Assembly: GCA_037043015.1 (NCBI GenBank)
Contig: CM073326.1
Location: 18,298,345-18,362,344, forward strand
DNA: 64,000 nt
From: Bryum argenteum
Lineage: Eukaryota; Streptophyta; Bryopsida; Bryales; Bryaceae
Reading direction: 5' to 3'
In this document: positions 18,033-64,000 of the stretch, piece by piece
Position numbering within the stretch: the first letter of the stretch is position 1
Layout: the number at the start of each line of letters is the position of its first letter
Made by a program: the position numbers and the translations under genes
The notes under the pieces: generated by a model
Database searches by the model: none
What the model saw: only the letters and a program-made list of their open reading frames with translations
Told to the model about the DNA's origin: nothing

Positions 18033-18576
18033 TTCAACTCGATGACTAGTTAGGAATTTGCTTTAACTATATAGACTTGTTGTTTTCAAACTCAGCAGAC
18101 TTTGGCGGCCATTTTGACATAGTAAAACAACTTTTTTCAAAATCCTTTAGACTAAGAAAAGCTGGTAAATCAAGTTACGTTTCATCTCCAAAAATCCTTT
18201 TGTCATTTAAACCATCCATTCAAAAGTTATAAAGAAAATTCAAAGAGGGTGTTTGAAAATATCAAAAAAGAAAATTCCTTGCTACCCCTCTTTGAATTTT
18301 GTCTATAACATTTGATTGGAGGCTTTAAAAGACAAACGAATTTTTGGAGATGAAACTTTACTTGGTTTACTAGCTTTTTTTATCCTAAATGTTTTTGAAA
18401 AAAACTATTCTACTATGACAAAATTCTTGCTAAAGTCTGCTGATTTTTTTTAAATCCCTAAATGACCTTCACGCCCCCATGCGGCTTCTAGAAGTAAGAA
18501 GTGAGAAGATTATGGTTCTTGGGCTGTGAATTATAGGATGACATGTAAATGTTGGGTATTTTTCAAGTTTTGTTAA

Positions 18577-19147
18577 CCCCAAACTGTCCGTGCGTGTTTT
18601 TGGGAGCTCAAAACCTTGAAACTACGATTTTCTACCTCTATGCATTCCCAAGGCTGTAAACCAAAGTTATTTCTTTTTTTGAAACTTCCAACCGTAAGAT
18701 CTTCTACTTAAGACTATTTTTAGTTATTTTTCAAAAAATGAACCGTTGGATGTTTACCATTTGCGAGATCATAACATCCAAAGTTTGTCTCCCAAGCTTT
18801 TTTGGGCATTGTCAAGATTGGTTTGGAAACTTTGAGGTCGCCTTGTAAAATTGGTAAACTTTTTGACCAAGAGCCCTTAGGAACTTAAGTAGTACTTTGG
18901 TTATGAACATAATTCCAATTTTTTTTTGAAAACCTAAATTTAAACTGCCCGATCTTGGCTCGCACATCGAGAATTGCCCTAGAATATTCAAAAATTGAAA
19001 TTCCACTTTGCAAATTTTACCACACCCACTTTGCAGTATAAGGAGCGCCAAGTAAAAATATTAGACAGAAAATATTACCTTCAACACCTTTATCTAGGTT
19101 GCCCGAAATTGCAAAAACCCATTTTGGGCTCCAAGGACGGTTAGGGG
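18577..19147. mobile_element. TTAA-flanked MITE-like element (571 bp), divergent member
   Basis: TTAA lies at 18573-18576 and 19148-19151. Termini are CCCCAAACTGTCC and, on the opposite strand, CCCCTAACCGTCC. The interior is non-coding and resembles 44.2-44.77 kb. It is nested in the CACTA element. Confidence 0.7.
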
Positions 19148-20528
19148 TTAAGTGCCCCCATTTTAGCAATTCCACGCTGGTCAAAAATAAAAAAGTTGAC
19201 AAGAAGTTGACAAGAAGTTGACAAAAACATTAATAATTTCTAAAGTGACAGAAGTTGGGCTGCAAGCCTGCGACTTCGTCATTTTGGACATTTTCTTGTC
19301 AACTATTGGTCATATCGGGCCCTATTTCCTTGTAGTGCAAGGAGATTAACAAGAACAACACATGAAGGAAAGAGGAAGAGACAAGAGGAGGCAAGGAGAA
19401 GACAAGGAGCAAGGGAGAGAAGAAGATGAAAACCGCCGCCGGCCTCCATTTGAGCCCTCCTCGGTCTTTGGCTCGCCATTTCTCCATCCTAGCTCCGATT
19501 GGGACGTGCCTTAGCTTTTTAGAAAGTTAAGTCAATTTTGCACTCATCCTCAAAATCTCAGAATCATAGGACCAGAAACCTAGGACTGATTACCAAATAA
19601 CTGGAGCTGTTTTTCCTACTGCCGGCAGCGGTTACCCTTCAACACCCTTAACTTTGGAGGGGTGTATCTCCCTCCCTACAACTCGGAATCGGACGAGCCA
19701 TATATCAATGGAAAGCTACTGAAGAGATCTACCATCGTCTCAAGTCTTGATTTGTTTGGACAAAAACCAAGGGACTGACGGGGGAAAAACTGAGAGGTTC
19801 AAGAAAAGACATCACACACTCAAGGTAATCACTACTAGCATAGAAGGGGAGATCAATATTAGAGAGAAGGAGGCCCTCGGCCCTCCTTCTCCTATCAACT
19901 AAGCATTACAAGAAGAAGAGGTAGACAAACAAGATGAATCAAGATACAAACAAGAAGAGGAAGGCTTGATTCTAGATAGCTTGCAAACAAGCTCTTAAGT
20001 ACAAAATATGGAGCCGCCGGAGACGCGGCTCACCCTAACCCTACTAAGGCTTAAAGCCCCAACTAAGGTCTTATTGGATGAATGTCGTCACTACTTCACA
20101 CGCTCCATCCTTCAAGCCTCCATTCCATCAACCACTTCATCAATGGATGTAGTCTCACATGCTACCACAAGGTTAGATGGATGAGACTTACAACAATCAA
20201 ATTTCAAACACAACATGGACATCAAAGACTAGTTGTACAAAGCCCATGGTAAAACGCTCAATTCTAATTTAAGCAACTAACCCTATTTCTAATTTAGGAT
20301 TCACTAGGGGGAATTTTTCCTCCTCTAGTTCTTCTCCATCATCAATTGGATCCACTAGGAGGAATTTTTCCTCCTCTAGTCCTTCCACACCCTAAAGCTT
20401 AAATTAGTCTTAAATGTCCCATCAAAGGCCTTGCAACAACTAACCCCTAATATACAAATTGCATTCAAAACTAAATTATTGTATATTCATCAATTTACCT
20501 CAAGATGTCATGGTTTGCAAACACTTCA

Positions 20529-20774
20529 TTAATAAAAGTCATTATTAACAACATTTAAACAAGAGAGCGCTCTCACGCTCTCACAGGTGGCGGCCATCTG
20601 GGACGAGTCGAAGAGGAGAAGAACCCCATAAAGAAAGCTCCCGGCAAACGCACCAATTATGTGAGCCCAAATCCCGGTGAACCGGTTTTTAAGCCACAAG
20701 GTTGGGCCGTGGAGGTGGAGTGCAACACAATTTGGCCTTCCAAGCAATGGGTCACCCGTTTTTTCTAATCGCAA
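20529..20774 (-). pseudogene. Possible captured aquaporin C-terminal fragment
   Basis: The 81-codon minus-strand ORF contains ALHLHGPTLW, then FTGIWAHIIGAFAGSFLYG. That spacing and composition resemble the second NPA-loop/TM6 region of plant major intrinsic proteins (NPAR..GP, then W.Y..GP..GA..G..Y), but the Asn-Pro-Ala-Arg loop itself is not intact. It lies inside a probable LTR element, so if real it is a transduplicated exon rather than a gene. A chance hydrophobic frame is the alternative. Confidence 0.3.
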
Positions 20775-21339
20775 GCATGCAAGAACAATTCAAACAACTA
20801 AGGGATACAAACACTCAAACATCCTCAATGTTCCATGCAATCATACAATTTCAGCAGTAGATGAAAAGTCAAAACATTCAAAATAAATTAAGAAGAGCAA
20901 AAACATGCCAATAGATTCAAATCTCAATCAATTAGGTAGGACCAGCAGTGAATTAAGGGTCAAAATTCACCAATCGTGAGATTGGGAGGCTCAAATTGCC
21001 TCCAATTAACCACTAGGGCTTTGGGCTCAATTATGGGGATCAAATGAGCCAAATAACAACCAAAAACCCCCAAATTGCATCCATTCGAAGCACTACAACA
21101 CAAATTTATCACATGAAAATTAGAATTGCAATACTAAACACAAACAAGCAAATTCAAACAAGCAAATTCAAACAAGCAAATCCAAACAAGCAAATCAATG
21201 CAAATTACACAACGTTTTTGGGTGACCAGAGCCACCGAATTTTAAAGTAATGATACGAGTCTAACCACACACACCAAACCAATTGCAAAAAACACAAATA
21301 TCAAGGAATTGAGAAGGGATGGGCTCCCTTCACGTTGTC

Positions 21340-21740
21340 TCCGACCACTGCTGGACCCTCCTTCACTCCAGCTGCCACCACGCCTCCATCCTTGATCCGT
21401 TGAGGACGAGCTTAGTATTGCTGGAAAGAGGGCTTGGAGACGCTTCCAAATCACCAAGGCTCGTCCCTCCAGTCTTCGTAGATCTCGAGTTGTCGCCCAC
21501 GACAATCGGCCTTCAACTCTACCGCCACAGCCGGCCCTCCTTCGCTCCAACTGCCACCACGCCCCCGTCCTCGATCCGCTGAGGGCAAGCCTAGTATTGC
21601 TGGAAAGAGGGCTTGGAGACACTTCCGAATCACTAAGGCTCGTCCCTCCAATCTTTGTAGATCTCGAATTGATGCCCTTCAAAGTCGGCCTTCGAATCTG
21701 CCACTACAGCCGACCCTCCTTCACTCCAACGGCCACCACG
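21340..21740. repeat. About 180-bp imperfect tandem repeat, 2.3 copies
   Basis: A GC-rich unit beginning CTCCTTCACTCCAGCTGCC recurs at about 21357, 21536 and 21716. The long minus-strand frame over it (21682-21242) is a consequence of the repeat, and I do not call it a gene. Confidence 0.8.
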
Positions 21741-25070: not shown

Positions 25071-25640
25071 CCCCTAAACTACCAAGGTGTTTTGTGAGCT
25101 CCAAACTCCAAAATTGCAATTCCATACCGCCTTGTAAACATTGGAGTTTGAGAATATTTTTTACACTTTTTTTAAACTTTCAACCGTATGATCTTGAAGA
25201 TATCTATTATTAGAGGTAGTGGCTGAAATTTCAACCGTTGGATCGTAGCCATTTGTAAGATCATAACATTCAAAGTTGATGCAGTTTTTTTTTCAGCAAA
25301 CATAGTCGCCTTGGTGCAAAGGAAAACGTGATGCTTATTACCTTAAACATCTAGCTCATATTTTTTCCATGTATATAACTAAGTTGGGCATGCCCATGCA
25401 AAATTTTAGACCCTCATTTTGCTTTTTGAACCTTCATGCAATTTATTTATTAGAAGGAGGTAGAAATCAAGCATTTGGTAAAACATGCATCACGTTTATT
25501 GTATATGGTTTATGGGAAAAAATGAACAGTGAGTATATACCTTCTTGAGTTTTTGAATTTCAAGAAAAATGAAATCCAAAAAACTCCAAAATCTCAAATT
25601 TTGGCAAATTTTGAAAGAAAATACTGAAATATCAAAGACG
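25071..25640 (+). mobile_element. TTAA-family element, 3' truncated
   Basis: It starts after TTAA (25067-25070) with CCCCTAAACTACCAAGG and follows the 58916-59843 copy closely for about 570 bp. It stops at about 25640 without its right terminus, just before the hAT pseudogene. Confidence 0.75.
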
Positions 25641-25679: not shown

Positions 25680-27381
25680 TGTGATCATGTCGAACCTTAA
25701 AGAACACGTGTTCTCTTTGCGTGAACCTCCATTTGAACTATCCCCCAACGTAGCTACGAAATACGAGGATGCATTTCAAAACGATGTGAAATGATGCTCA
25801 CAGACCTCCACTATGTTGCAGCTTTTTTGAACCCTTATTTGACAAATATGGGAGCAATTCAAAACAATGGAGAAGCAAAAAGAGCTTTAAATCGGGTCAT
25901 ATGGAAGCTTAGTGCCCCTATGGGAGTAGTCTATGAAGAAGTGGTGCGGGAACTCATACAATATGAGGAGAGGACGGGTTCATTTAACACCAATTCAGAG
26001 GCCCCTGATCCCGCTCAATGTGAGTCGCTACCACATCAATGGTGGCATCAGGTCTGGGGGAACGCCTTGACAAAAATTGCTAAGAGGATTTTGGCATTGA
26101 CATGTTCAGCTTCATCATGTGAGAGGAATTGGAGCATGTACTCTTTCGTGAACAACAAAGTGAGGAATCGATTGTCTACCTCCAAAGGAGAGGCCCTTGT
26201 GTGTACATCTATGCAAACACCAAACTTGAGCGCGAGAAACGTAGACAATCGCCGAGAACGTGGTATGAAAATTATTCAAAAGAAGAGGACTCAGACCAAG
26301 AAGATGATATACCGGACAATGAATGGGATGATGGTGTATTGGGGGATATCCCGAAAGCGGATGACAACAACGATCTCAATGATGATAGCGAACACGACAA
26401 CCTAGAGAAATAGAACGACGACGAATGTCCATTGTTTCAACATGGAAACATGCCTATTCCTGTCAAGGACCCATTTGAGTTCAATGACGACGAGGATGTT
26501 CCACAACGGCTTTGCCAGTTTGCGGTTGCGGGCATAGACACAGAGGGAGAAGGAGTGGCAAATTTACAGCTCCAAGAGAGTACTTGCCTAGCGAAACAAG
26601 ACTTCGTAAACCGGATTGATGTAGGGAACATTGGTCCCTTAAAGGCCGCCCACAATCTAATAGCGACAGTAAACTTGATCGTGTGAAGTGTACGACTATC
26701 TCGGCAGGAGTTGAAATGGGCCAAATTAAAGTGGAACATGAAAATGTATCAAATACAGGTTGCTTGGAAGTGAGATCACCTAGAATTTCGGCCATTCGAT
26801 CAAGAAGTGCAACTCAAAACGGAGATGACTCCGATGTACTACTACAACAGTTGTTACCAAGGGTTACACAACCTAAAGGGGCCCCTACGACTCATATGAT
26901 ATTGCCGAAGACGGAGGTCAAAATAGAAGCAACAATTCCAACATGCACCCGAGCATTGGCAGTGTCGCAAGACATTGGGCCATCTTCACAACCTTGCAAT
27001 CGTATTACACGAGGACAGAAGCGTTTGAGAAAGGCACACGAGCGATGAAGTCGGAAAGGAGCACGGGTACATGAAGAAGTCCATGCAGGTACTACTTCCT
27101 CCAATAATCCGAACACACGTACAATGCGACATTTACCACTCAACGCAAACGGGATTACTAATGCTTCACGGCCCTTGAAGCGGCTCCTTACAGTGAACAA
27201 GAAAACAACTACAGACACAGAAGTGCGCAATTTGGCGAGTGAGGTTGAGTGTAAAGTACGCAATAAGACAGAGGATGAAGTCGAGGATGGCGACCAAAGC
27301 ACTGATGAGTCTCTAGATGAAACCGATCCAAACGCAGATGAAGTATCAAGGGACGATACGTATACATGGAAGGATACCTAA
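25680..27381 (+). pseudogene. hAT-family transposase C-terminal pseudogene
   Basis: 25791-26200 encodes the dimerisation region typical of plant hAT proteins (KRILALTCSASSCERNWS, then NKVRNRLSTSKGEAL). A 1-2 nt frameshift at about 26195 moves the sequence to another frame (VYIYANTKLEREKRR, 26200-26410). That frame is open to about 26686 except for a TAG at about 26411. A third frame continues (26683-27048, and after a TGA to 27381) with an acidic tail of unknown function. The catalytic part upstream is missing or unrecognisable, and no terminal inverted repeats were found. It is a dead remnant. Confidence 0.75.
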
Positions 27382-27962: not shown

Positions 27963-28211
27963 CGCCTAGTGTGACTAATATTTTAATTTCCACGTCATTA
28001 TCAACCCTTCACCACGTATGAAAATAGCTTTTTACTTCAATGTCAATCTCCAAAACCCTCAACAAGTTTTTACTATGCAATTTCTAGTATGATCAATATT
28101 CCCGTCGAACCGGACGTCACACAGACATGTCGAATACGGACAATTCAGACAGACATTCCGACAGTGTGTCACATAAGACAACCCTGCTTCTAAGGCCTAA
28201 CATTCCGACAT

Positions 28212-35979: not shown

Positions 35980-37317
35980 ACAATAAGGATCTATCTATCA
36001 ACATGGTCCAAGCAAACAGGACCTTGCCAACGACACAGCCGGAGCAATCCAAACACACAGACCTCCATTTGACTTGTTCAGATACCGAGAACATTGGTAA
36101 AGAAAGTCAAACAATGACCAGCGGCAGAAACAATGACCAGCGGCAGAAGGAGCGAGAAGTAGATATGGAGGACCAGGGTAAGAACCTGGACGTATTAACC
36201 CCTAAAGGCCCGAGGGGTTTGAAGAAAAACTTAGATGTGTTATAAACTATGGATTTTGTAACCCTTACGATGTAGAGTTCCAAAAACCCTAAATTAGGCG
36301 TATACGGTTTAATTCCCTAAAATAGATAAATATTTATTCTATAGTTAATTAAAAAGAGTAAAACTTTGAAAATCAATATAAAATGTACTTTCTATCATTA
36401 ATAATTTTAAATTGATTTGATTGACCAAAATCACATATTATATGATAAAATGAAGAGAAGCCATGAGTAACCTATGAGAAGCCTTACTAGTTTCTCAAAA
36501 TAGTAAGTTTTCTTACACTGAAAAAACCTTACCCTATTTGTGTTTGAAGGCTTATTGAACAATATATGAATCCAAACGTGGTTCTCTACATTAGTTGTGG
36601 CTCCCATCACACCAAACTAATGGAATAATAATAAAAAATACAAAACAAAACTTTATTTATTGGGGTTCAGTTCCTCAAAATTCAGGATCGACCACAAAAT
36701 AGTACCATTGGGCTCTTAGAGGTCAAGCAACAACTCATAAAAGCTCAATAGTCGGGACAGTAGAACCACTGCAATCGGAAGAACGACTACCCAGACAGAG
36801 ATATGGAAACACCCACACCTCCATTGCCATGTTCAGACATCAAGAATACAAACAATGACCGGCGGCAAAAGGACCCCACGAACTAGATTTGGAGAATCAG
36901 CCTCGAAAAGGAGCCACGGTGAGAAACAACGATACCTGAGAGTGATGAGTAACCGGCAAAAGATCAGTAGACGGGGTAGCAGGACTCCAGAATTAAGAAC
37001 CACACCGAGAGAGCGACTCCAGGATGCACGAGCAAGAGAGATTGCAATGAGCAAAAACACGACTCAGAAGCTCCACTGCTTTCTTGCAGTCCTTGAATAC
37101 TTCCTCTACCATACTATACGGGATATGGTATGTAGGGGAAATAATTGAGGTGGAGGTCCGTACGAAAGCTGGGAGAGAAGATCGTGCCTGCAAAGTTTGT
37201 ATTAATAATAACGCAAGTGGGTACAATCGCTTGACTCTGTCATGGGAGCGCTTACATGAGTTACATCTGGAGGACTTGGAATCGGTGCACGAGGAAATGG
37301 TACCAGACTTTTGAGAG
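35980..37317 (+). pseudogene. Unrecognised degenerate coding region, interrupted by a TTAA-like element
   Basis: 36003-36198 and 36780-36900 are diverged copies of one segment (CAAACAATGACCAGCGGCAG against CAAACAATGACCGGCGGCAA). Short plus-strand frames (36003-36245; 36855-37148; 37084-37314) have polar, protein-like composition, e.g. KQRYLRVMSNRQK and WERLHELHLEDLESVHEE, but are short and change frame near 37084-37146. I cannot name the product. A small spliced gene, or a transposon protein remnant, are both possible. Confidence 0.25.
36199..36722 (+). mobile_element. TTAA-family-like element with decayed right end
   Basis: TTAA (36195-36198) is followed by CCCCTAAAGGCCC. The right end is GGGCTCTTAGAGG, then TCAA. 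The left part is closely related to 60373 onward (both continue GGGGTTTGAAGAAAAACTTA). It sits inside the degenerate coding region described separately. Confidence 0.55.
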
Positions 37318-37699: not shown

Positions 37700-38290
37700 G
37701 GATGATTATGGTAAGGTTAGAGATTTTTACCATTGTTGAGAACATTGTCGTGTAATATTTTTCTAAAATGTAGGTATAAAATGAGCGATGATATTTTTTG
37801 AAAAGCATGCATCACGATTACTGTATTTTATTTGACAAAGAAGTGTATGCTCAGTAGGTGCCTTCATAGGTTTTTGATTTTTAAGAGAAATTATATTAAT
37901 ATATATGATATTGAATTTGACCAATTTTGAAAGAAAAATATGAATTTGGTTTCAAATTTTTTCAAGCCTACCCTTGTAAAATTGGTAAACTTTTTGACTT
38001 GGGTCACTTTGGAACTAGAGGATTGATAGAGGTTTGAACATGTTTTGAGAAAAAAGAATCAAATAAGCACTGAAATTAAATTGCCCTTTTTGGACTTGAA
38101 AATCAAAATTTATAAATAAAGGTTTTAAAGTGGAATTTGGCTCTGCATAGTTTACGCCATATACTTTGCAATACAGTGGGAAATTGGTAGAAATCTTAGG
38201 CCTACTTATCAATTTTAACCCCTTTATCTAGGCTACCCAAAATTACAAATACCCATTTTGGGCTTCTTGGTCCTATAGGGGATAAAAATA
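37700..38290 (+). repeat. Decayed TTAA-family sequence
   Basis: Similar to the interior and right part of the family (TTGTAAAATTGGTAAACTTTTTGACTTGG-type text from about 37975, right end GGTCCTATAGGGG at about 38280). Termini are mutated, so boundaries are uncertain. Confidence 0.45.
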
Positions 38291-40280: not shown

Positions 40281-41690
40281 TTGCCACCATATTGCACAGT
40301 GTGATTCCTGGCTACTTTAGCTGTGGAGCACTGCATGATGAAGGGGACTTTGGGAGGAAAGTGTTCGTACCATTATATTTGAACTAGTAATTTATAAGCA
40401 TAGACTCCTTCTTCATGAATTCAAGGCTACAGTATGACACTGTTCTATACTATAATGAATGCCTTCAGCATAAACCACTTCCTGGCCATGCCTAGTGAAG
40501 AGAGTGTAGCTGGCCATGGCTCACACCATCCTCCAGGAAAACGTCACTTCCACTTCTGTTTACATTATATAGTAAGGTGCTCAATAATGGTTCAATTTTT
40601 CAGCCCAGGAAACGTATATTGTATGGGCGCCTATATTCGTGCATTTAAGGAGTTTACTATACTCGGAGTGATCAAATGGGTGACTTACTATTTACAGAGG
40701 TTAGTATATAAAAAAGACAAAGTTTTCTTATTTTGTGATAATTTTAGGTACTTACATATTTAACTACAGATTTTAGAAGGGACTAATATACGTACACCTA
40801 TAGTCGTTCACCCTTGTGCTCGATCGTACTCGTACATATGAGGAACACCCTATCCAAGGAAATCTTCATCATATCCCAAGGAAATCTTCATTTCATGGTG
40901 CCGGATCTGGGAGACAGCCGCAATATGGGTTCTCAAACCTTAGTAAAGTTAGCCCCTAAGAGTCCAATCAATCATTTTATGTTCAGTCGAGAACTTTGAG
41001 GACCTCTAACCCGGTTGAAAAAAGGAATTTGACCCACATGATGAACAATATGTTTATTAAAATATTGTACGATTAAGATCTAAAGAACTTACCTTTTTTT
41101 CCATTCATGACAAGTTTACAAGAATGTGTTCTTTTTACTACAAATGAGTCGAACCATTTAGGAGTTAATGCACATACGGATAACAAGTATATAATCAAAA
41201 ATTCCGGAAAGGGGTGAGTAGTATTGTTCTTCTACCTCTTTGTCCTGTGGCCATCGAGGTAAAGACATTACGAACAAACGCTGTATTCACGCCAATCTTC
41301 GATTTGAAGATTGGAGTTCTTATCTATCTATCTATCTATATAATCAAAAATAAAACATGTAGAGAAGAAAAATTCATGATGAGGCAGAGTAATCTTGTAT
41401 ATAACTTGATACTTAATCTTCAAATATGTAACGTAAGCTAGACTTTAGAGGTTCTTAAACTAATCTCTTAAAGCAAACTTACTTAGAAAACTCTTAGTCA
41501 ATCTTGTAATAGAATTCTTCTTTGGTTTTGAATTGGCTCAAGGGATTTGAGATTATGTTGTTGTTTATAGTAGAATGCTCAAATTATGGAGGAGGTTCAA
41601 TGATGGAGCTTTAGTAATCTTCACTCCCATGTACTGATAGTTTCCTAATCCAACAATAACATGTAATGAGAGCAAACATTATAGGATGCC
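40270..41690. repeat. Duplicated block 1 (paralogous to 58.8-62.0 kb)
   Basis: 40270-40998 matches 62011-60950 in inverted orientation. About 41020-41690 matches about 58770-60235 in direct orientation. Block 1 lacks the TTAA elements and Stowaway MITE of block 2, and carries a SINE piece (41203-41336) that block 2 lacks. It therefore provides empty sites for dating those insertions. Confidence 0.8.
41203..41336 (+). mobile_element. 5'-truncated SINE/LINE tail copy with 15-bp TSD
   Basis: It matches the 3' part of the SINE at 57733-58100 and ends in (TATC)n. The 15-bp duplication TATATAATCAAAAAT lies at 41188-41202 and 41337-41351. The paralogous site at about 59873-59890 lacks the insertion. 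Confidence 0.85.
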
Positions 41691-44600
41691 ACCCCCCCCC
41701 CCCTTCCTAACCACTATCCACCCTTTTGTGCTCTATTTTTAAAAGAAGATTGTGATTGTGCACAAAAAGAAAGCTTATTGATAGTTGATTATTTTTGAGA
41801 ATGGAAACCAACGGGGCTTCTAAGTTACCCCCTTAAGTTGAAAGCCCCCAAAATTGTTAGAACTCCTCAAAACCACCCTCTTTCAATGCAAGATGAAAAT
41901 TTACAACTTTTGACATAATCTCAAGTATATGACCGTAAGACCTTATACCTAACTTGTCCATGTATGTGCGTACCGAAACATAGTTCCAAATTCCTTACCA
42001 ATTGTGAAATGGTAACATTCAAAGTTGAAAAATAAGTTTCTTCCTTGTTGCGGAATGCATTAGAAGTTTTTTGTGAGCCCAACAAAGTAATTTCAAGTTT
42101 AAATGTGAACTGAGGCTTTTCAGATTCTTGTTCCTAAGTCAATTAGGGACATGCCTATGTAATTTTACCCTCATGCAACCTATAAAACCTAAAGAAATGC
42201 TTGAATTTTCACATGGAGGTATGTTGAAATTCAACTTCAAAGGACCCTCTTTGATAATAAAAATGGCATGTGAAGAATAATTGTATGAAAAATCAGAACA
42301 GTGAGATCATGCCTTAACACCTTATTTCCAAGTACAAAAAACAAAACTTGAAAAAAAAGTAAAATCTCAATTTTTGGTGAATTTTTGAAGTTCCTTTGAT
42401 CTTATTTATTTAGGGCAGATTTTGAGACTTAACAAGCATATACTATAGTTTGGGCAGATTTCAAATAGTGTTTTCAAACTTTGACCGGAAATATCTCCTT
42501 AAGTATGAGGAAATTTGAAGCATCAAATGATTTTTTGGAAAGGCATGGAAAAACTCTTTTACCTACAAAAGGTTTCTATTTCATAAAAAGCTAAATATAG
42601 TAAACAAGGGGTTGACCAGACCCCAAATGACGTGATCCGGACTCTTTTCGACATTAGGGGTTAAAGCAACCATTGCAAATGGAGAAAGGTTTATAAAGTG
42701 GAATCTTAAAGAAGAAAAAAGTGTAACAAAAGTTAAAAGTATACTTTCTAAAGTAAAAGCAACAAACGATTAAGGGCGATAAGTCTAATGCTCAAATCCA
42801 ATTGGCTTAAAAGTTAACAACTGCAGTGCTAAGAAATGTGTTGCTAGTATAAATGTGAGAGCAACATACACAACCCTCTCCCTTATTCCTTTTCTTCCTC
42901 TCTGGGTTAGTCCTTAATACTCTCCCTCCCTTGTAGATCCCTACTTCACTTAATACATATTACTCTCCATAGTTTCCGCACACTACAATAACAATGACAA
43001 AAATGGGACTAAAGACATATTACTCTCCATAGTTTCCGCACACTAAAATAACAATGACAAAAATGGGGGCGTTTCATGATCAACATCCCAAATTGGCAAT
43101 CAAGACCTCACCATCCACACTCATAAAAGGTCTAAGAATCCTTTACATTTGGAGAGAAACAAATACTTTCCTCACCCGCAACTAAATTGAGAAACTAATC
43201 AACTTAGTAGTGAATGCGCAAGCCTTGATCATTAATATACACTCAAAATTACGCTATTATGCCTTGATCATTATACACTCAAAATTGGGTGTACTTGTGT
43301 GGTCAACGGATACAACTATTCTAATGTTGCAATAAATAAATGTCGTGTTTGCACTTGAAATCATGAAGAAATATCCTCATGGTAATTAGCCGGAAGAGAA
43401 GAGAGTCAACCTTGTACAAGGAGAAGTCCCTCGTACAAACCATATATAGCATAATCAACCCCTTAGCGCTCCAAATTCTCAATTCGATCATTTTGGATAA
43501 CAACCAAAAATTGTGAGGAGCCTCGACTTCTTCATGGAGTGTCTATTATTGATGAAATTTGTTGGGTTAGATTCCAAATGAAAGCTACTTCTTTGTGATA
43601 AGATTCTTATATCAATCCAAGATATATAGAATTCTCTATCACTTGGGTTTGACTTTGCTACCCATGAAATTTGAAGTGTCCTATCCCTCGTAGTAATGCA
43701 AACCATATTTGGACTTGGTGTTGATGAACATAGACTCACAACTATGACAACACAATAAATCAATATATATTTGGATTAAGGCCAAAATTTTCGTATTACA
43801 TTTCCCCCAAAATCTTCCTAAAAGAATTCTTTGACTTAAATGTTCTCAATTGGTCATACTATTTGCACAAAGAAAGACAGAATTTTAATCGTTAAAACTT
43901 TGAGAACCTTCAATTTTGAAACTCCCACTTCAGTTGCATCTCACTTCCAAAAGCTCATTTATTATTATAAAGTGTAAACCTCTTGTTGCAGAATTATTAC
44001 ATGAATACGCCTATAGATTCAACTAAAGAAAAAAATAAAATAAATTAGTAACTAACTAGAATGCCAATGCTTGGTCTTTATTACAGAAAAAAATTAACTT
44101 GTGCCATAACTTGAATAAAAAATGTAGAATATATCAGCTAATGTTATGTGATTTTAAATATAAAAAGAATCTAAAGAATTTCAATCAGCCTCCAAAATCT
44201 CATTGGTGTTTTTTGGAAGCTTGAAACCTCAAAAGTGCGATTCTCTACCTCAATGCACTCCCGGAGGTGTGTACCAATTTTATTTCCTTTTTTTAATATT
44301 CCGGCCACAAGATTTTGTACCAAAGACTATCTTTAGTTACTATTCCAAAAATCAAGAGTTGAAGGTTTGCCATTTGAGGGATCGAACATCCAAAGGTTAC
44401 TCTCCCAAGTATTTTTGGGCATTGTGAGGAATGTTTCTAACTTTTTTGAAATCTACCCTGGAAAAATTGGTAAAATTTCTGACTTGAGCCACTTTGGAGT
44501 TTGAGTACTAATTCAGTGATGAACATGTTTTCAAAGTTTGTTTTTTAAAAGAAAACAAAAACCTTTTTAAGCTGCCCCATCTCGACTCGCAACCCAAGGA

Positions 44601-44800
44601 GTGTCCTAAGAGATTCAAAATCTGAAATCTAAATTAGCAAATCTTACCACATACACTTTGCAATATAAGGGGCAACCGGTCAAATATCTTAGACAAAGAT
44701 AATACTTTTCAGCCCCTTCATCTCGGTTGCCCGAAATTGCAAAAACCCATTTTGGGTCTCAAGAAGCTTGAGGTGTTAAATGGAAAAAATTTGGGAATAA
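41691..44800. other. Gene-free interval with decayed repeats
   Basis: I see no gene. About 41835-42660 ends TTAGGGGTTAA, and about 44195-44772 resembles the element at 18577-19147; both look like decayed members of the TTAA family. A C-homopolymer lies at about 41692-41703. The remainder is AT-rich sequence with no recognised feature. Confidence 0.5.
42955..43074. repeat. 60-bp tandem duplication
   Basis: The 60-bp segment starting ACATATTACTCTCCATAG (42955) is repeated at once at 43015 with one substitution over most of its length. The very high similarity suggests a recent local slippage or duplication. Confidence 0.95.
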
Positions 44801-44809: not shown

Positions 44810-47800
44810 CTAAAATTCCCCAACATAGCCCGACATCTGCAGCAATGCACGCACATTCATGGGAGTGATGATGTCGGGACCCCCATCGAGGAACCGGTGT
44901 GCGATGAGGTCATTCACCCTCGCGGTGGGATGGAAGGCATCCCAGAATATGGACTTGGTTCGATCGGTGCAGAGGTTCGTAATCGGGGTCCGGCATGCAC
45001 CGTCTATGCCATGGTATGTGCCAACACCGCAACATGCTAGGGATGGGGGGTCCGTGAAGCCATACTTTAGGGGATTGTCAATGACTTCCTTAAATGCAAG
45101 GAATGAGTCTGCATATAGGAAAATCGAACCCGGAAGCTTCATCGTCAAGCCCTCCAACATCCCCTTCAACTCCGCGTTGAAGTCCGATGCATACTTGTTC
45201 AATTCCGCCACACACTCTCCGTTCTTGCTCTTGGCTCTTAGAATCGATGGTGCACATCCGAGCGTGGGCAAGTTGGAAATGATGATCTTTCTCATTCCCA
45301 ATCCGTATGCCCTCTACAAAATGATGAAAAAAAATAAACACCTCATATTTGTCACGACATTGTCAAAGAAATGAACTTTAGCATTAAGTGTACCTTTGCA
45401 TCGATAATCACCATTAGAAACATATTTCTTCCATCCCCTAAAATAAGCAAAAAGTATCCTCGATGACTAAATGAGAACACTATTTGTTATTACCATCGAG
45501 TAACGGAGTACCTACATTTTCGTACATGAACATCACATGTAGTTGATGATTAAAAGTTGCTAAAAAAAATTCACCCCATATCCAATTTCTACCATTCAAA
45601 TTGCGACGAGTTCCTACCACATTTGATTTTCACAATTTTCAAAGAGTTAGGGGTGGAAGCAAAGTACCTCAAGCTCGCCTTTGAAGGTGGAAATGAGCAA
45701 AGCTTGAAACTGAGCAGGAGTGTACTGGTCTTTGGTATTGGTCAGAGGGGACTCGTAGTTGTTCACATAGTCATTCCCTCCAATGGAAAACAAATAAATT
45801 GCGTTGTCTATGAGAGCCTCCATGGCGGGTCGGCCTATGAGCGTGGCAATTTGCTCCTTTGTTTTACTAAAGAGATCGAATTGATTTGACATCGTTAATC
45901 GCGCCAACTGCATGACCACCACAAAAAACGAAAAAAAAAAACCCGACATATGTTTAAGAGCGCACGAATAACCTTTACATTGAAATGGAAGATGGTGGAT
46001 TCTAGAGTAGAAAGTGAGCAGACGAAGGAGAAACTAGTACAATTTTCATGAGCACATGAATCGGGGGTGAGATTTGGCTTAACCCCTAAAGATCCAAGAA
46101 AGCTGAAATGACTTTTTCAGATTTCTGCAGGGAAAAAAGTCAGCCAACTTTGACCATTACAATTTCAGAATTAGAGAAAATTTAACAATTCAAATTTGAC
46201 ACATGTGTAAAGGGTCAAGTTAACTGGTTGGATCTTCAAATTAATGCTTAGATTGACTTTCTTTGGGCCTGAAGTAGAAGAAGATTTTTATTTGATAATT
46301 TAGACAATTTTGTATCAAAGATCTTTAGGGGTTAAGGAAGAGGTAGCAAACTTGCTAGGTTAACGGTATCTTGCTCATTGATCCAACTAAAAAAAACAAT
46401 TTTTATCGATTGACAAAATTATCAAGAAGCGTGTACCTCAACAATTGAAAATTTAACATAAGCATAAAACTAGATGAATGGAAGCTTGTCCACTAAACAT
46501 GCTTAGACTCTAATTAATTTTGCAACTCTTAAGTACATTAGGAAACAAATCTTCTTCTTGCATAAATGCCTCTACTTCACTATTTTTTTTTTAAAAAATT
46601 ACTGACATTCTCTTTCATGGAATTCGGAGATTCAAGCTTTTTACTTTCACGAGTGCCATAAAAGTTTCTCAATTTTCAAGAGATAGAAATAAAGGTATTT
46701 GTAATTGGCTTACAAAGATGGAGCCTGTTTCTTCAAGGATGCCAGCCCCTGCAGAAGCATAGTTGACTCCTCGGAGGAGGTTGGTTCCATTGGCTTCTGG
46801 AGCAAGCACTGGAAGCGCATATGGCGTTCCTAGATACTCATCTGCACAACAATCACCCAACTTTTCCTTTTCAAAAAAGAATGCTAATATAATGGAAGCA
46901 ATTTTCATGCACGGGGGAAATTAGTAAGAATCTAGAGCAAGTGGAATCATCACTTTTGGACTCTTCTACACTGAGATATGAATTTTTGAAGTTCATTAAG
47001 TAGGAATAAAATAAAATAGAGATACATGTTTCTAATAAATTTAATCAGATACCAAAAGATCAATTGTGGTTCGTTTCTATATCAATGCAATAATCTTAGG
47101 TGCTGAATATCTGTAGGGAAAAAAACAGACTAGCTTTACATTAAAAACACCATATTCAATATAAAACAGGATTGTGGAAATAAAAAGTAAAACGGTATAA
47201 CAAGATGTAGATTGTGAGCTTCTGATTATCATTTTCCATGGTTTAGACCTCAAGATTCTTTCTAGCATCGAGAATATTCCTAGTTCTGTAGAATATAATG
47301 TTCCAAATCTACTTACTTTTTCATTTCAGATGAAAGGCCAATCATTCTTCAAATGAAGTATAACCTAATCATCCCATATCGTTTTTCATTGCACTGTGGA
47401 AGAATCAGTTAATTGTGACATCGTTTCCCAATTTAACCCCTAGTGCTCCAAACGGCCATATGATATGCTCTTTTCAACATTATGTTTTCAGACTCAATAT
47501 ATCTCAAGATCCACACGGTGAAATAGAATAATTAGACAATTATAAACAGTTGGATTCCTCATATCAAATTCAAAAATAATAATGATAAATTGTCCACGAA
47601 GGCCACTGTAGGAGTGTAGGGCTAGAGCATGAGGGGTTAACACGTGATTGTGAAAGAATGTTCTAAATTCCAGGTTTGTTGATTACCCGGTACACCCGGG
47701 CGTTGACAGAAATGAGCTTTTAGATTCCGAGGTTTGAAAATCTGCATACTTCAAATTTTACACCCGGGTGTTGAACAGAATCAAATCTTTAGATTCCGAG

Positions 47801-49984: not shown

Positions 49985-50916
49985 CTCCTAAACGACTAAG
50001 GCCTCTCTAAGGAGATTTGTGATTTCGGGCAGCTTGAACGAAGATGTTAAAAATAATATTTTTGCCTAAGATTTTATAGGATGTTCCCTATACTACAAGG
50101 TGTATGTGGGAAAATTTGCAAAGTCAAACTCCATCTTTGGAGTTTTTAAACGCAGATTTCAATTTTCAGCCTAAGGGCGAGCACAATAAAACTTCTTTTT
50201 TTCTTGCCTTTTTTTTTTTTGAAAAATTTTTGAAAAATTTTGAAATTTTTTTTTTGATTGATTTTGTACTTAGGTTTCCAAGTGACACAAGTTGAAACTT
50301 TTAGCAATCCTACAAGGGCACCCTTCAAAAATTACAAGAGTTAGATTCAAAGTTTTCTTTGATATTTCAATTTTTTCTTTCAATATTAGCCAAAATTTGA
50401 GATTTTGAAATTTTTTGAATTTCTTTTTTCTTGAAATTCAAAAACTCAAGAAGGTATATACTCACCGTTCATTTTCCCCCTAAACCATATACAACTAACG
50501 TGGTGCATGTTTTACCAAATCCTTGATTTCTACCTTCTTCTAGTAAATAAATTTCATGAAGGTTCAAAAAGCAAAATGAGTGTCTAAAATTTTGCATGGG
50601 CATGCTCAATTCAGTTATATACATGGAAAAAAGTATGAGCTAGATGTTTAAGGTAATAAGCATAACGTTTTCCTTTGCACAATGTGGACTATGTTTGCTG
50701 ACAAAAAGATTGCATCAACTTTGGTTGCTATAATCTTACAAATCCCAAAAATCCAACGGTTGAAATTTCTAACATTACCTCTTATGGTAGTCCTCTTCAA
50801 GATCATACGGTTGAAAGTTTCAAAAAAGTGTAAAAAATATTCTCATACTCCAAAGTTTACAAGGTGGTATGAAATTGCAATTTTGGAGCTCACAAATCAC
50901 CATGGTCGTTTAGGGG
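49985..50916 (-). mobile_element. Full-length TTAA-family element (932 bp)
   Basis: TTAA lies at 49981-49984 and 50917-50920. The termini are CTCCTAAACGACTAAGG and, on the opposite strand, CCCCTAAACGACCATGG. It is collinear, in inverted orientation, with 58916-59843. It has no transposase ORF. Confidence 0.88.
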
Positions 50917-54759: not shown

Positions 54760-56800
54760 TCGAGTCATTAATCGCACAATCACCGAACGGATTCGAGAGA
54801 ACGGCAGATGTCGGGAATGTGGATCGCAAAAAGTGAGAGTAGAATGAAGTTGAGCGCGGGCCTGGGATTTAGGGTTTAAGGATTCTCTAGCCTGGCTACT
54901 ATCAGCTTCATATATCACACACAAGCCATAAGGAGTTTTTTTCCGTATGGTGATCTATAATAAGATGGCCAATAATGGCGCAATTTTAGCACGGAAAATT
55001 TACAAGGATGTTACTAGTGCGAGCAATTTTTGTGCATGGGGAAAAGTAGTAGAAAGTTAGAGTAAGTGGAATCATCGATTTTGGACTCTTCTACCATGAG
55101 TTATGAATTTTTGAAGTCAGAAATATAGGTGTTTCTAAGATGGTGCCTTAAAGTAACACCCTAGAATGTTTACAATGAGTACATGGTACTATTGTATCGA
55201 GAAGATATTATGTACGTGTGAGTGAAGATTACTATAGCTCCATTATCGGCAGTGCACCATTATAGATTGTTTTACTATATAGTAAGTGGTTCACAAACCA
55301 CTCAAATTTTAAATTAGCAAGCTTGTTGGTGAGTGGCCAAGTGAATAAATTTTGAAAGATGTGTATGTAGGAATCTACATGAGATGAAAGTACTACTTTT
55401 GGATTCGTCAATAAGTACTTGTGATTTTTGGAGGTGGCACCTAGTCTGAAATGTACACCATGGGTAAAATGAGATTTACTATAATGTATCATTCACGTAA
55501 ATCTTTCCAGTGAGCAAAATGTGGTGTTGTGTAGATTTCCAGCCACATATTATAAATCTCTAAAGGCCCAAGGATAGCAAGGTTTAATTTTCTACTATAG
55601 CAAGTAAATCGATAAATAAATTTTTAAGAACAACCATCATAATGAGTAAAAAAAACTTGGGAGACAAACTTTGGACGCTATTGTCTCTCAAATGGTTAAC
55701 ATTCAACGGTCAGTCTTTCGAACATTGACTAAAAATAGTCTTAGATACAAGATTTTATAGTTAAAAGTTCAAAAAATAAGAAAAAAATGATTGGTTTAAC
55801 ACCCCTAAAAGTGGATAGAGGTAGAAAATCACAGTCGTGAGGTTTCAAGCTTCCAAAAACACACAAGCCAGGAGCTTTAGGGGTACAAACATCTCTGTAC
55901 ATAGATGACCTTACCTAACATGAAAATATGAAAAACTGACTAAAAGATATCAACCCTTACACCTTCATTGCCCTTGTTAAAAAATTTAGAGTTAGATGCT
56001 TCGTCGGGATGTTTATCTCAAACAAAAAGTAGAACTTCCTTTGCTTTGCTTCGCTTCCATTTGCTTCCATTTGCTGTGTTTCTGTTTTTGCTTTCTTGTT
56101 TTTCAACGAAGAAATGAGCCACAGCTAATAACAAACACATCTCTCCGATATGCTATGGTGCGAAGCTGATGATTCCGGGGCTCAGTATACAAGAATGAGA
56201 ATGAATCTAAATGTTGGAGATTGCACTCTCTTGCTTCCAATTGTTTCGCAGGCTTAACTCCGTAATGAAGAGCTGGAGTATCAGAATGGGAGGCACAGAA
56301 ACTCTTAACCTGCTGAAGTATACTAGTTTTACTTGAGCACATGTAGCAGTGAGCATACCCTAGATGGACAGTGTAATTGCTATCTAGATAGACATGAGGC
56401 CATCTGCTTACTACAGTGTAGGCAACAACAAACGCGAAGCAATTACTTCATTCATCTTCTCAAAATTTTGGTCTTCAAGAGAAAGACAATGAAGGCAGGT
56501 GAACCCTATAAAAAGTGTCTCGATGAAAAAAACCAACAAGTGAGAGTGCTCATTAATGGTTCAAATTTCAGATTTCGTGATCGGTAGTGAAGTTAACAAC
56601 GTTAGCAATACTCATGCATGGAGAAAGTAAATGGAAGATTCGTCGAAGTAGATTCATCATTTTTGAACTTTTCTACAATTTACTATGATTTTTTGAAGGC
56701 AGTCTCATAGGTGTTTCTAAAAGGGTGCCCTAGTTTTGTACCAACAATGTTTGCCGTGAGTACATGCTATTGTTGAGTGAAGAAGCCTCTTGAGTGAACA
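54760..56800. other. mL53 promoter side followed by dispersed-repeat fragments
   Basis: The mL53 promoter should lie within the first few hundred bases (54.69-54.95 kb). About 55030-55260 and 56540-56800 are diverged pieces of the 745-bp repeat seen at 38.8-40.3 kb. About 55620-55870 resembles the TTAA family interior. No other gene is supported. Confidence 0.5.
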
Positions 56801-58112: not shown

Positions 58113-58770
58113 AGTATCAATTTTGGCATGCATTTTAGTGAAGGTAGCTCTTGTTATTGGGTTTTCAAACATGGGGCATGTTTTGCCATTGCAAATCAAT
58201 TATGTATAATTCATCTTACTTATTCATGAATATTTTTTGCACAAGTACAATACTTATGATGGAATCCAACAACTTTGTGGTTGGAAGATTTTTTATTCAA
58301 ATACTTTAGGTATTGGATTTGCAATGATGTTTCTGAACTGATTTTTTTTTTTAATAAATGGTTCCAAAGAAGTTTTCCTCCTTCATTCACATTTGGAGTT
58401 TCTTTCTTTTGGTGGTTTGGAATCTAGTATGAGTTTATTATATTGTTAGAAACTATAAATCCTTTCAAGGTGTGAGGAAGACATGGCATGCATTTCACTG
58501 CAAGAGATCTAATTCATGGCTTTTTTTTTTTCTTTGTAGATTCCAGGGCAGATTTCACCATTGCAAGGCTATAATTTGAGCCAAGAAATTTTTTGATGAA
58601 TTTTTCTTGGGCAAAGGTGTTATTAAAATGAAAGTAAAACATCTTTGTAGTTGGTGATTCTTTGAGAGCAATACGTCTCTTGGTAGCATTTTCACTTCAA
58701 ATGAATATGTTGGAATTTTGTGATGTTTTTTGAGTATTGATGCATTATAATCTTGCAATCTAAGAGGTTG
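58113..58770. other. No gene recognised
   Basis: AT-rich spacer with T-homopolymers at about 58339 and 58519. No ORF or repeat could be supported. Confidence 0.45.
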
Positions 58771-58915
58771 TCATGACTCAAAATTTGACCCACATGATGC
58801 ACAATACGTCAACTACAAAGTTGTACGATTGAGATCGAAAAAACTTACCTTCGTTTCCAAACATGACAAGTTTTACAAGAATGTCTTCTTACTCCAAATG
58901 AGTCAAACCATTTAA

Positions 58916-59843
58916 CCCCTAAACGACCATGGTGTTTTGAGAGCTCCAAACTCCAAAACTGCAATTTCATACCACCTTGTAAACTTTGGTGTATGAGAAT
59001 TTTTTTCACAATTTTTTGAAACTATTAACCGTAGGATCTTAAAGATAACTATCATGAGCAATAGTGTTGAAAAGTTCAACCGTTGGATCTTTTCCATTTC
59101 CAAGATCATAACATTCAAAGTTGATGCAAACTTTTTTTCAGCAGACATAGTCTACTTTGTGCAAACGATATTGTGATGCTTAATACCTCAAACATCTTGC
59201 TTATATTTTTTTCAATGTAGGTAACTAAGTTGAGCATTACCATGCAAAATTTTAGACACTCATTTGGTTTTTTGAACCTTCATGCAATTTATTTACTAGA
59301 AGAAGGTAGAAATCAAGGATTTGGTAAAACATGCACCACATTTGTCGTATTTGGTTTAGGGGGAAAATGAATGGTGAGTAGGTGCCTTCATGAGTTTGTG
59401 AATTTCGAGAAAAAAGAAATTCAAAAAATTCCTAAATCTCAAATTGTAGCAAATTTCGAAAGAAAAAATTGTAATATTACAGAAACTTTGGATCTAGTTC
59501 TTGTAATTTTTTGAAGGCTGCCCTTGTAGGATTGGTAAAAGTTTTGACTTGGGTCACTTGGAAACCTAAGTAGGAAATCAGTCAATTAAAGAAATTTTTA
59601 AAAAAATCTCAAAAAAAAGTTAAAAATAAAAAGTTTTTTTCTGCCCACCCCAAAGCTGGAAACGAAAATTTGCGTTTTAAGACTCCAAAAAAGGAGTTTG
59701 ACTTTGCAATTTTTCCCACATACACCTTGTAGTATAGGGAACATCCAATAAAAATCTTAGGCAAAAATATTGATTCTAACCCCTTCATCTAGGCTGCCCG
59801 AAATAGCAAAACAGCCAAATCGGAGGCCTTGGTCGTTTAGGGG
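58916..59843 (+). mobile_element. Full-length TTAA-family element (928 bp) with empty-site control
   Basis: TTAA lies at 58912-58915 and 59844-59847. The terminal inverted repeat CCCCTAAACGACCA is perfect for 14 bp. The paralogous site at about 41145-41170 lacks the element and has one TTAG where a single TTAA would be expected. There is no transposase ORF. Confidence 0.93.
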
Positions 59844-60372: not shown

Positions 60373-60985
60373 CCCCTATAGACCTAAGGGGTTTGAAGAA
60401 AAACTTAGATGTGCTATTAAAATATGCATTCCTTAGCAATTATGAAGTATTGTTCCGAAGACAATATGAAGACCATGAATCCTAAATTAGATAAATACAA
60501 CTTGATTGCCTAAAATAGTAAATTTTTGATCTAAGATGAATTAAAGAGAGTTAAACTTCAAAATTCAATATAAATGTACTATATGTTATTAGTAATTGGT
60601 AATTGATAAGGCTTGCTCGAATCTCATATTACATGATAAAATGGAGAGAGGCCACCAGTAACATGTAAGGAACACCATTGGTTTCCCAAGTAAGTTTTTT
60701 AACACTAAGAAAACCTAGCCCTGTTTGTATTTGAATGCTTATTGTGAACAATCTATGAATCCAAAAGAGGTCTTGTAGTTTAAATTTGGTTCTTAAAACT
60801 TAACCCACCAAAACTCCAAGAAGGATATTCAAAATTTAAAAAAATTTAAAATTTTCCAAAAAATAAAAAAAATAAACAAAATAAAAAAAACAAAAAAATA
60901 AAATCCTAAAAAATATTTTTAAAACCGGGTACAGCTCCTCTAAGTTCAAGATTGACCATACAATGATTGTTTGGATTCTTAGGGG
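60373..60985 (+). mobile_element. TTAA-family-like element with decayed right flank
   Basis: TTAA (60369-60372) precedes CCCCTATAGACC. The likely right end is GGATTCTTAGGGG, but CTAC, not TTAA, follows. It is related to 36199-36722. Confidence 0.5.
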
Positions 60986-61284: not shown

Positions 61285-61509
61285 CTCTTAAAGGTCTGAG
61301 AGTGTCATGGCGACCAGTAGAATATGGTGTATTTTGGTTGTATTTGGAGTGAATGCACACCTTTAATGGGTTTAAGTTCAAAGAAGAAGTTGACATTTGA
61401 ATTAATGCGGTTCTAGTGAGCTATTACGATTCCAGTTTAGAGTTTCTCGTTGGTAGCAAATCCTAATTATACGACAGCATACATACTATCCCCGAGGGAC
61501 TTTTAAGGG
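61285..61509. mobile_element. TTAA-flanked MITE (225 bp) with exact empty site
   Basis: TTAA lies at 61281-61284 and 61510-61513. The termini are CTCTTAAAGGTC and, on the opposite strand, CCCTTAAAAGTC. The paralogous locus on the opposite strand at 40645-40648 has a single TTAA in the same flanking context (AACTCC-TTAA-ATGCAC). Confidence 0.9.
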
Positions 61510-61889: not shown

Positions 61890-62320
61890 TACTAGTTTAA
61901 ATATATGGTATGAAGACTTTCCATCCAAAGTCCCCTTCATCATGCAGTGCTCCAGAGCTAAAGTAGCCAGGAATCACACTGTGCAATATGGTGGCAACTT
62001 GCATACAAGGATCCCTTCAAGGTAAAGGGACCCATTCCCGACCGGGGACCCATAACCGATCAAGCCCAATTCCTAGATTTTGAAAGTACAGATGTACCTC
62101 ATTTGTATATTTGAGCATGTGATCAACTTTAGGTTCTAAGCAACTTTTCACTTTAAACAACTATAACTATTTAAATAATGCAAATAAAATCACGAAACTT
62201 TTTGCATTCAACAAGAAGCTTATGTTTGCACACATGAAAAATTCTAAAAAAAATATTTACCTTAATATCATATGCTAAAATCCTTAAGTGGTCGGTTATA
62301 GGTGCCTCTACCTTAGACTA

Positions 62321-62381
62321 TGGACCAAAAGCCATGACCAAGAAAATAAAAATCATTTTCATGGTCATGGCTCTTGGTCCA
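62321..62381. repeat. 27-bp near-perfect hairpin
   Basis: Arms 62321-62347 and 62355-62381 pair with two mismatches and a 7-nt loop. A second, weaker fold-back lies at about 62577-62644 (CATGGTCTCC...GAGGACCATG). The surrounding 62.0-62.8 kb has no gene. Confidence 0.75.
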
Positions 62382-62819
62382 GAACTGTGACCATGATAAA
62401 TCAAAGATGGATTTTTGAGTGGCTTGGTCACTCTTATAGTGTAAAGTGATTCGGGCCGCGAGAAGTCTAAGCTTAGTTTCCTAATATAAATCCTCATCAT
62501 TCTCTCTCTTACCCTCCCTTTTTCCTCCTTTCTTTTTAAACAATTGTACACTAGCCAATCAATGATTTTTGAGCCTCATGGTCTCCTTGATTGTATTTGA
62601 GTCGAGGTGTTTGCTTCAACTCAAGTGTAATCAAGAGGACCATGAAAACATTGTCCACTATGAAAAATTTAGCATACTTTGGGGACCTCAAAATCACTAG
62701 TCATTTGCCTTTCTTAAAGTAGTGTAAAGCCAAATGGGACGGAGATCACTTTACTCTCAAATCACAAGTTTTAAAGGTCATGGTCAATCTTCATGCTCTA
62801 AAGTGTAAAGTGACCCTAA

Positions 62820-63414
62820 AAGAGAGTGCTCAAAAATGGCTCAAATTTCAAATTTCAAATTTCTCAACCTCTAATGAAGATAGTAATGGAATCAAGTTTC
62901 ATGCATGGGGACAATAAGTGGAAGGATAGTCAAAGTGGAGTCATAAATTTGGACTCTTTTACAAATTTGTTATGAATTTTTGAAGGTGGATTTATAGGTG
63001 TTTCTGAATGGTGCCCTATTTTGACACCCTCTAATGTTTGGTATCAGTCGTGGTACTATTGAAATGTAACACTGTTATGTACCCATGAGTTAAAAAGCCT
63101 AGTGCTCCATTATTGGTATTACTTCATTTTTCAGCAGTTTCACTGATTTCAATGAAAAAAATTGCTCACACTTTGAATATGTTGGGTTGAGATTTGGAGT
63201 GCTAGCCTTAGAAGTATGCTCCCTGAGGTAGTTCTAGTAAGCCCTCTCTTTAAATTGTGGAAGATAAAAAAAAATCCCTCCTGCATGGCTTTTGTCTTGG
63301 TTCTTGATGTTTAGCTCATGATTAATAAATTGTTTGACTCCTATGTTTTGAAAAAATAAAAACATGCACACACTTGCATCGGAAGAGGTACCTACACCCA
63401 ATAGTTTCAACCCC
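62820..63414. repeat. Inverted copy of the 745-bp dispersed repeat
   Basis: On the minus strand it follows the units at 38.99-39.54 and 39.74-40.28 kb (GTACCTCTTCCGATGCAA through to GAGCACTCTC). Its edge abuts the TTAA of the next element. Confidence 0.75.
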
Positions 63415-63418
63415 TTAA

Positions 63419-64000
63419 CCCCTAAAAATCCAGGAAAACCGATTCGGTTTTCTGAGATTTCGGGCAGCTCATTTTAAGCATTTAAATTGATATTTTTGCC
63501 TAAGATTTTTATTGGGTGCCCCACATACAGTAATGTGTACGTGGTAAAATTTTCAAAGTCAAATTTTAATTTTATAACCTTCATCTAGAAATTTTAGGTT
63601 TCAAGTCCAAAACGGGCAGTTTAAAATAATTTTTTTTAATTTTTTTTTTTTTAGAAATATGTTCATTACCAAATTACTATTCAAATTCCAAAGTGTCCGA
63701 AGTCAAAAAGTTTACCGACAAACTAAATATATCATACGTGGTGCTTGTTTTACTATATGGTTGTTTTTAGACCTTCTTTCATAAAATATTTTACATTAAG
63801 GTCAAAAAGTGGAATTGGTCTCTAAAATTTTGCATGAGCATAACCAACTTGATTACCTACATGAAAAAAAATGAGGGAAAAATATTTGGAATAACAATCA
63901 TCAAGTTGCCCTTGGCACCATTTAGACAATGCCTCTCACGCAGTGGCAAAAAAAAAGTGTTGGTCAAACTTTGATTGTTATGATCTCACAAACGAAAAAC
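63419..64000 (-). mobile_element. TTAA-family element, running off the window
   Basis: TTAA (63415-63418) is followed by CCCCTAAAAATCCAGG and then the family interior (TTTCGGGCAGCTC and onward) in the same orientation as 49985-50916. The other end lies beyond 64000. Confidence 0.75.

Follow-up and report, generated by a model that had tools for sequence, protein, structure and literature searches.

Transposons of the piggyBac superfamily have mostly been studied in animals, and the piggyBac element of a moth is a standard tool of genome engineering. Animal genomes also carry piggyBac-derived miniature inverted-repeat transposable elements (MITEs), which are short, noncoding, flanked by TTAA, and have common ends. 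Here we analyzed a window of 64 kb of contig C6 (assembly of 258.8 Mb in 25 contigs), which contains elements that resemble these MITEs but differ in having a plant host and in falling into several size classes of up to 932 bp. The window elements are very probably non-autonomous DNA transposons of the piggyBac superfamily, comprising MITEs and longer derivatives, that are mobilized in trans by transposases of the piggyBac type, the genes for which lie elsewhere in the genome, in complete elements of 4.9–5.8 kb with like ends. The support consists of duplication of TTAA, common ends, homology between a 928-bp element and transposase-bearing elements in their subterminal regions, the presence of all three catalytic aspartates in the transposases, and comparison of insertions with empty homologous sites.

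The superfamily has been recorded in plants, as several papers indicate. A survey of 257 species lists PiggyBac among the superfamilies found in all eukaryote groups it covers, including land plants (PMC4438587), so that ‘absent’ is too strong a word in the description of piggyBac as rare or absent in land plants that an earlier note on this DNA had given. The genome of the fern Ceratopteris has 1,230 PiggyBac copies, amounting to 0.00% of the assembly (PMC6890710), a plant review counts PiggyBac among plant superfamilies (PMC10794571), and an animal survey mentions in passing piggyBac isolated from plants (PMC10813416). Several PiggyBac families occur in Tisochrysis, an alga of another lineage (PMC5963040). 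In their accessible parts, a Physcomitrella methods paper concerns the moth element only, as a tool yet to be tried there (PMC5505980), the genome paper on the moss Niphotrichum contains only the word ‘piggybacking’ (PMC10619864), and a Teratorn review has nothing relevant on plants (PMC10175614). Among the titles and abstract openings listed for the open-licence literature (a scope outside which repeat databases lie), we found no description of native piggyBac in a moss or other bryophyte, nor of an intact, recently copied plant piggyBac. The kind of element is known; it is the abundance, intactness, and host that merit attention.

Six elements of the window are bounded directly on both sides by exact TTAA, with the following coordinates and matches between their two ends.

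58916..59843, plus strand: 928-bp piggyBac-type non-autonomous element of the CCCCTAAACGACC family; 14/14 bp
49985..50916, minus strand: 932-bp inverted copy of the 928-bp family, 83% identical to 58916–59843 over 941 aligned bp; 12/14 bp
46083..46331, plus strand: 249-bp piggyBac-type MITE of the CCCCTAAAGATCC family; 12/14 bp
61285..61509, plus strand: 225-bp piggyBac-type MITE of the CCCTTAAAGGTC family, with copies elsewhere; 10/14 bp
18577..19147, plus strand: 571-bp piggyBac-type element lying within a CACTA-like element; 11/14 bp
47437..47636, plus strand: 200-bp element with CCCCT ends, partial matches only elsewhere; 11/14 bp

The inverted ends are of the CCC(C)TAA type, forming terminal inverted repeats that begin CCC(C/T); two of the left ends start CTCC/CTCT. 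A scan blind to these motifs, which sought TTAA-bounded segments of 150–1200 bp whose inverted terminal bases match at 10 or more of 13 positions, recovered exactly these six and no others, at the positions the earlier note had assigned to all six. The same scan applied to 50 first-order Markov simulations with the same base-step frequencies yielded a mean of 0.48 segments and a maximum of 3.

The association with TTAA extends across the genome. The 17-bp end CCCCTAAACGACCAWGG of the 928-bp family has 317 exact occurrences (149 + 168), as compared with none for a reversed-pattern control, and exact TTAA precedes 290 of these. Likewise, TTAA stands before 196 of the 256 exact occurrences of the 20-bp end CCCCTAAAGATCCTTGATAC of the 249/260-bp family. 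Individual copies of this family, including the one in the window, have TTAA on both sides in seven of eight cases examined, as do all five other copies examined of the 225-bp family (true ends placed by eye). These elements insert at and duplicate TTAA, as is characteristic of piggyBac.

Empty-site homologues of three insertions, two of short elements and one of a transposase-bearing element, occur within the window. Two have defined limits.

40496..40793, minus strand: empty-site homologue of the 61285–61509 insertion, with 87% identity along 301 bp spanning the junction
58500..58915, minus strand: empty-site homologue for the insertion at locus L044, a transposase-bearing element of 5,750 bp whose joined flanks align continuously; target TCAA

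The inverted homologue at 40496–40793 has a single TTAA within the continuous stretch CTCC-TTAA-ATGCAC, and the filled site has an additional 225 bp and a second TTAA. The third, a continuous empty homologue of the 58916–59843 site, lies near position 41,153, and the target there is TTAG. A right-end-like site at 41164 was considered as another element and rejected because it is this same empty homologue.

Left flanks ending in TAA and right flanks beginning with TTA would make it imaginable, from one copy, that these are PIF/Harbinger MITEs whose 3-bp TWA duplication has been misread as TTAA. However, TAA and TTA are different triplets, and hence do not constitute a 3-bp direct repeat; TTAA stands once in the empty homologue and twice at the filled site, with no 3-bp TWA duplication; and the scanned transposases inside elements with these ends are of the DDE_Tnp_1_7 type. 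We consider a PIF/Harbinger origin extremely improbable.

The transposases were located by a genome search with the Pfam DDE_Tnp_1_7 profile (PF13843), which produced 776 candidates. All 116 that were scored pass the curated cut-off (best E value, 7e-82), and 93 of them have no stop within the match; no match occurred in any of 14 control genomes. Eleven transposase neighbourhoods were examined at 6.3–8 kb, and in seven of these a complete TTAA-bounded element surrounds the transposase.

L039: complete transposase element, 4,942 bp
L040: complete transposase element, 5,191 bp
L043: complete transposase element, 5,278 bp
L044: complete transposase element, 5,750 bp
L054: complete transposase element, 5,484 bp
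L055: complete transposase element, 5,704 bp
L057: complete transposase element, 4,932 bp

These are roughly double the length of the 2.5-kb moth piggyBac element. Their ends match at 11–14 of 14 terminal positions; for L039, an alternative 7.3-kb end pair with a perfect 14-bp match is also present. In five of the seven (L040, L043, L044, L054, and L055), a single frame is open for 732–1187 codons (stop to stop) and contains all three catalytic aspartates and a C-terminal cysteine-rich stretch, while the transposase frame is broken or shortened in L039 and L057. The search for longer elements with like ends and a DDE_Tnp_1_7 transposase, which the earlier note had proposed, was therefore successful. 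That note had also named beforehand two outcomes that would count against piggyBac, a target duplication other than TTAA and a partner with a transposase of another superfamily, and neither occurred. Together with the TTAA counts at exact ends and the duplication of TTAA relative to the empty homologue, this upholds its assignment to piggyBac. The autonomous partners thus appear to encode the DDE_Tnp_1_7 transposase expected of piggyBac.

Across 30 aligned loci, the catalytic aspartate is found at the three positions in 30, 29, and 27, with gaps accounting for the remainder. A fourth neighbouring position is aspartate in 26 of the 30 and alanine in one (L011). A regular expression search found the C-terminal cysteine-rich motif along with the three aspartate motifs in a single open reading frame (ORF) in 15 of the 30 loci, a count that depends on loose patterns and on ORFs of which some are cut or broken. 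The predicted proteins thus appear to have both the catalytic aspartate triad and the C-terminal cysteine-rich domain of piggyBac transposases.

The frames of L043 and L055 match the solved piggyBac and piggyBat transposases (E values, 9e-32 to 3e-23). The likeness to piggyBac of Trichoplusia ni (PDB 6x67/6x68) encompasses the DDE_Tnp_1_7-type core, the aligned aspartates, the TTAA target, and the CCC-type ends. Unlike that transposase, which has 594 residues, those in the five complete elements with open frames are longer and are found in a plant. The catalytic core is also like that of piggyBat from Myotis lucifugus (PDB 9c0f), to whose C-terminal Cys/His stretch the alignment extends with a score of -1.3, which is not significant; the end sequences and host are different. 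A further difference from both is a long N-terminal part. In the five frames scanned (L040–L044), DDE_Tnp_1_7 is the sole Pfam match, which leaves this part without one. Within the superfamily, N-termini are typically nonconserved and disordered, and there are two unrelated C-terminal domains, according to the accessible part of PMC11707139. Long extra ORFs without a Pfam match are located upstream of the transposase in three elements (L044:5866–6990; L054:1015–2187 and 2305–3021; L055:693–1403), and these are possibly first exons or a second gene. A protein search with one transposase gave no match in plasmids and no relative in viral contigs, where 37 pattern hits were obtained and none was confirmed.

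As piggyBac is best known from animals, the transposases might have come from an insect, fungus, or other organism contaminating the assembly. However, the 116 transposase matches are distributed over contigs C1 to C11, which are 17–44 Mb in length where shown, and C6 itself carries the window, with its NB-ARC, leucine-rich repeat (LRR), and kinase gene pieces adjoined by MITEs. In addition, the repeat into which the L044 transposase element is inserted has another copy in the window. We therefore give contamination next to no weight.

The short elements are related to the complete ones to varying extents. The 928-bp element aligns with the L044 element from base 1 of both (70% identity over 400 aligned bp), and its other end aligns as well (72.5% over 131 bp). 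It aligns likewise from the first base to L055 and L056, and to L053/L054 with 74% identity over 227 bp. The 571-bp element is 78% identical to L057 over 159 bp, and the 249-bp MITE and L057 begin with the same 13 bases, CCCCTAAAGATCC. For the 249-, 200-, and 225-bp elements and a pair of possible members at 36199 and 60373 (see below), there was no BLAST match to the 11 neighbourhoods, and only terminal bases are common. None of these links is close enough to name the exact partner of any MITE family.

Family relationships were assigned by BLAST among the window elements. The elements at 18577 and 63419 are diverged relatives of the 928-bp family, those at 46083, 47437, and 61285 have no match to other window elements, and those at 36199 and 60373 form a separate pair. 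Because these groups are separate, the elements are best described as several families with common CCCYTAA-type ends, rather than the single family of the earlier note. In DNA searches of the genome, for which the best 40 matches were scored, MITEs outnumber long elements among those 40. The 40 scored came from 1641 candidate matches for the 249-bp MITE and from 943 for the 225-bp MITE. The 928-, 249-, and 225-bp families have the attributes of MITEs, being short, multi-copy, devoid of transposase, and possessed of ends in common with an autonomous element, although for the 225-bp family it is only the terminal motif that is common. The element at 47437–47636 does not qualify as a MITE in the same way: no second full-length copy was found among its 15 matches, the other 14 falling in its first 95 bases. 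It is a weaker member, assigned by its TTAA and its two ends.

The 571-bp element has a different history. The six copies examined, including the one in the window, have flanks in common because all lie inside a CACTA-like element, which corresponds to the stretch they have in common.

17669..19337, plus strand: CACTA-like non-autonomous element carrying the 571-bp element; ends CACTACAAGG / CCTTGTAGTG; 3-bp duplication CAA

Three-bp duplications (CAA, TTA, CTA, GTT, and ATT) flank all five copies with both ends readable; the sixth, L065, has no readable left end. The CACTACAAGG ends and 3-bp duplications are those of CACTA (En/Spm) non-autonomous elements, from which 17669–19337 differs by carrying a piggyBac-type passenger. 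This CACTA-like element first acquired its piggyBac-type insert and multiplied afterward. The 571-bp element has 40 scored genome copies with 95–100% identity, which, as far as flanks were examined, reflect movement of the CACTA-like element and not of piggyBac, and which indicate that the carrier multiplied recently. No copy of the carrier lacking the insert was found among the 40 scored matches, all of which stop at the junction.

Carriage within other repeats, which is what occurred for 18577–19147, or segmental duplication might be proposed as the main mode of spread for all the elements. Partial flank similarity does exist between L003 and L007 (one side, 301 bp) and between L058 and L060 (123 bp), as well as on one side between L052 and the window copy 58916–59843, both of which lie in copies of one host repeat. 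But the L052 insertion is ~11 bp away from the position of 58916–59843 in that repeat and its second flank is unlike, marking it as a separate event, and otherwise none of the flanks compared match between places in the other three multi-copy families (8, 6, and 6 places). We consider it very unlikely that copies arose mainly in this way, rather than by independent piggyBac insertion.

Some observations weigh against the interpretation of the window elements as piggyBac-derived and moved in trans. There is no exact TTAA before 27 of the 317 exact ends of the 928-bp family and 60 of the 256 of the 249/260-bp family, and in one of the eight copies of the latter one flank reads TTGA. The one-base target variants noted above occur in two of the three empty homologues, and for 18577–19147 there was no empty site among the 40 scored matches. 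Four of the 11 transposase neighbourhoods (L041, L042, L053, and L056) have no complete end pair. DNA searches, among their best 40 matches, yielded no near-identical autonomous counterpart of a window MITE, the best homology being 70–78%. Lastly, we infer transposition itself from sequence. According to the trans-mobilization model, the transposase would bind the MITE ends and use the known chemistry of piggyBac to cut them and to reinsert the element at TTAA, and particular transposase subfamilies would move particular MITE families, in pairings that may be only presumed.

The age of the transposases was gauged from synonymous divergence (dS) in 14 pairs chosen from identity clusters, which ranges from 0.01 (L027/L034 and L019/L020) to 0.82. 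The ratio of nonsynonymous to synonymous divergence (dN/dS) is 0.08–0.16 in five diverged pairs (dS 0.28–0.82), as would be expected for genes kept functional through repeated transposition, and 0.22–1.19, on the basis of too few changes to be informative, in eight younger pairs (dS <0.08). Silent sites are saturated in the L016/L023 pair. The low dN/dS of the diverged pairs along with dS values down to 0.01 make the elements look both old in the lineage and recently copied. We put forward only tentatively, as possible rather than probable, that a piggyBac radiation of long standing, in which elements are still mobile, exists in a land plant (probably a moss), with more than 100 transposase copies in several divergent subfamilies under purifying selection, moving MITE families. 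Were this so, no native piggyBac system of a plant would have been well documented before it, and its origin might lie in horizontal transfer. Intact, recently copied plant piggyBac elements would supply a natural, plant-adapted transposase for testing, the history of the superfamily in plants would become testable by phylogeny, and the TTAA-inserting MITEs could serve as markers of recent mobility.

Less complete members and relatives are also present in the window.

25071..25638, plus strand: truncated 568-bp copy of the 928-bp family with the left end only; TTAA flank on that side alone
63419..64000, plus strand: diverged relative of the 928- and 571-bp families, cut by the window end; longest matches 68–70%
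44210..44756, plus strand: relative of the 571-bp element without the outermost ends; 75% over 551 aligned bp to bases 21–552
55649..55865, minus strand: related fragment with 77% identity to the 571-bp element over 217 aligned bp
36199..36582, plus strand: possible member, left end only (TTAACCCCTAAAGGCCC); 72% to 60373
60373..60771, plus strand: possible member, left end only (TTAACCCCTATAGACC); 72% to 36199

Four of these had been suggested earlier as additional truncated or decayed copies. The site at 25071 is indeed a truncated copy, with 84–88% identity to the two full copies of the 928-bp family over 569 aligned bp, and that at 63419 is a relative. Those at 36199 and 60373, which both begin TTAACCCCTA, are only possible members, as no right end of either was found within 900 bp. 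An ORF with a hAT dimerisation domain (25737–26405) adjoins the truncated element at 25071–25638. Further pieces matched by BLAST are at 37955–38016 and 38127–38281, in addition to 44210–44756 and 55649–55865, and right-end-like sites also occur at 39685 and 42660. The elements together make up 5,212 of the 45,428 bp named (~11%, the 36199/60373 pair left out of the count), which falls short of the claim that they fill much of the intergenic DNA.

Neither Rfam nor tRNA scans gave any match in the window. Neighbouring NB-ARC, LRR, and protein kinase ORFs on the minus strand, along with a GDSL lipase fragment, fit a plant, and the order kinase-NB-ARC-LRR, which is typical of mosses, may point to one. 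The minus-strand LRR coding region (28124–31078) consists of ~19 similar 144-bp units of 48 residues each, with overlapping 300-bp blocks 73–93% identical to a reference copy. It is open in several frames on both strands, and adjoins NB-ARC and kinase ORFs up to position 34457. The stretches 4542–5775 and 10776–12016 lie ~6.2 kb apart and have common 300-bp blocks that are 100% identical; since ORFs with integrase and RNase H pieces occur between them, a young retrotransposon with these stretches as its long terminal repeats is possible. Arrays of GGTCGGGTCGACCGGTAAA-type repeats are located at 301–1038 and 2892–3353, and are open in three and two minus-strand frames, respectively.

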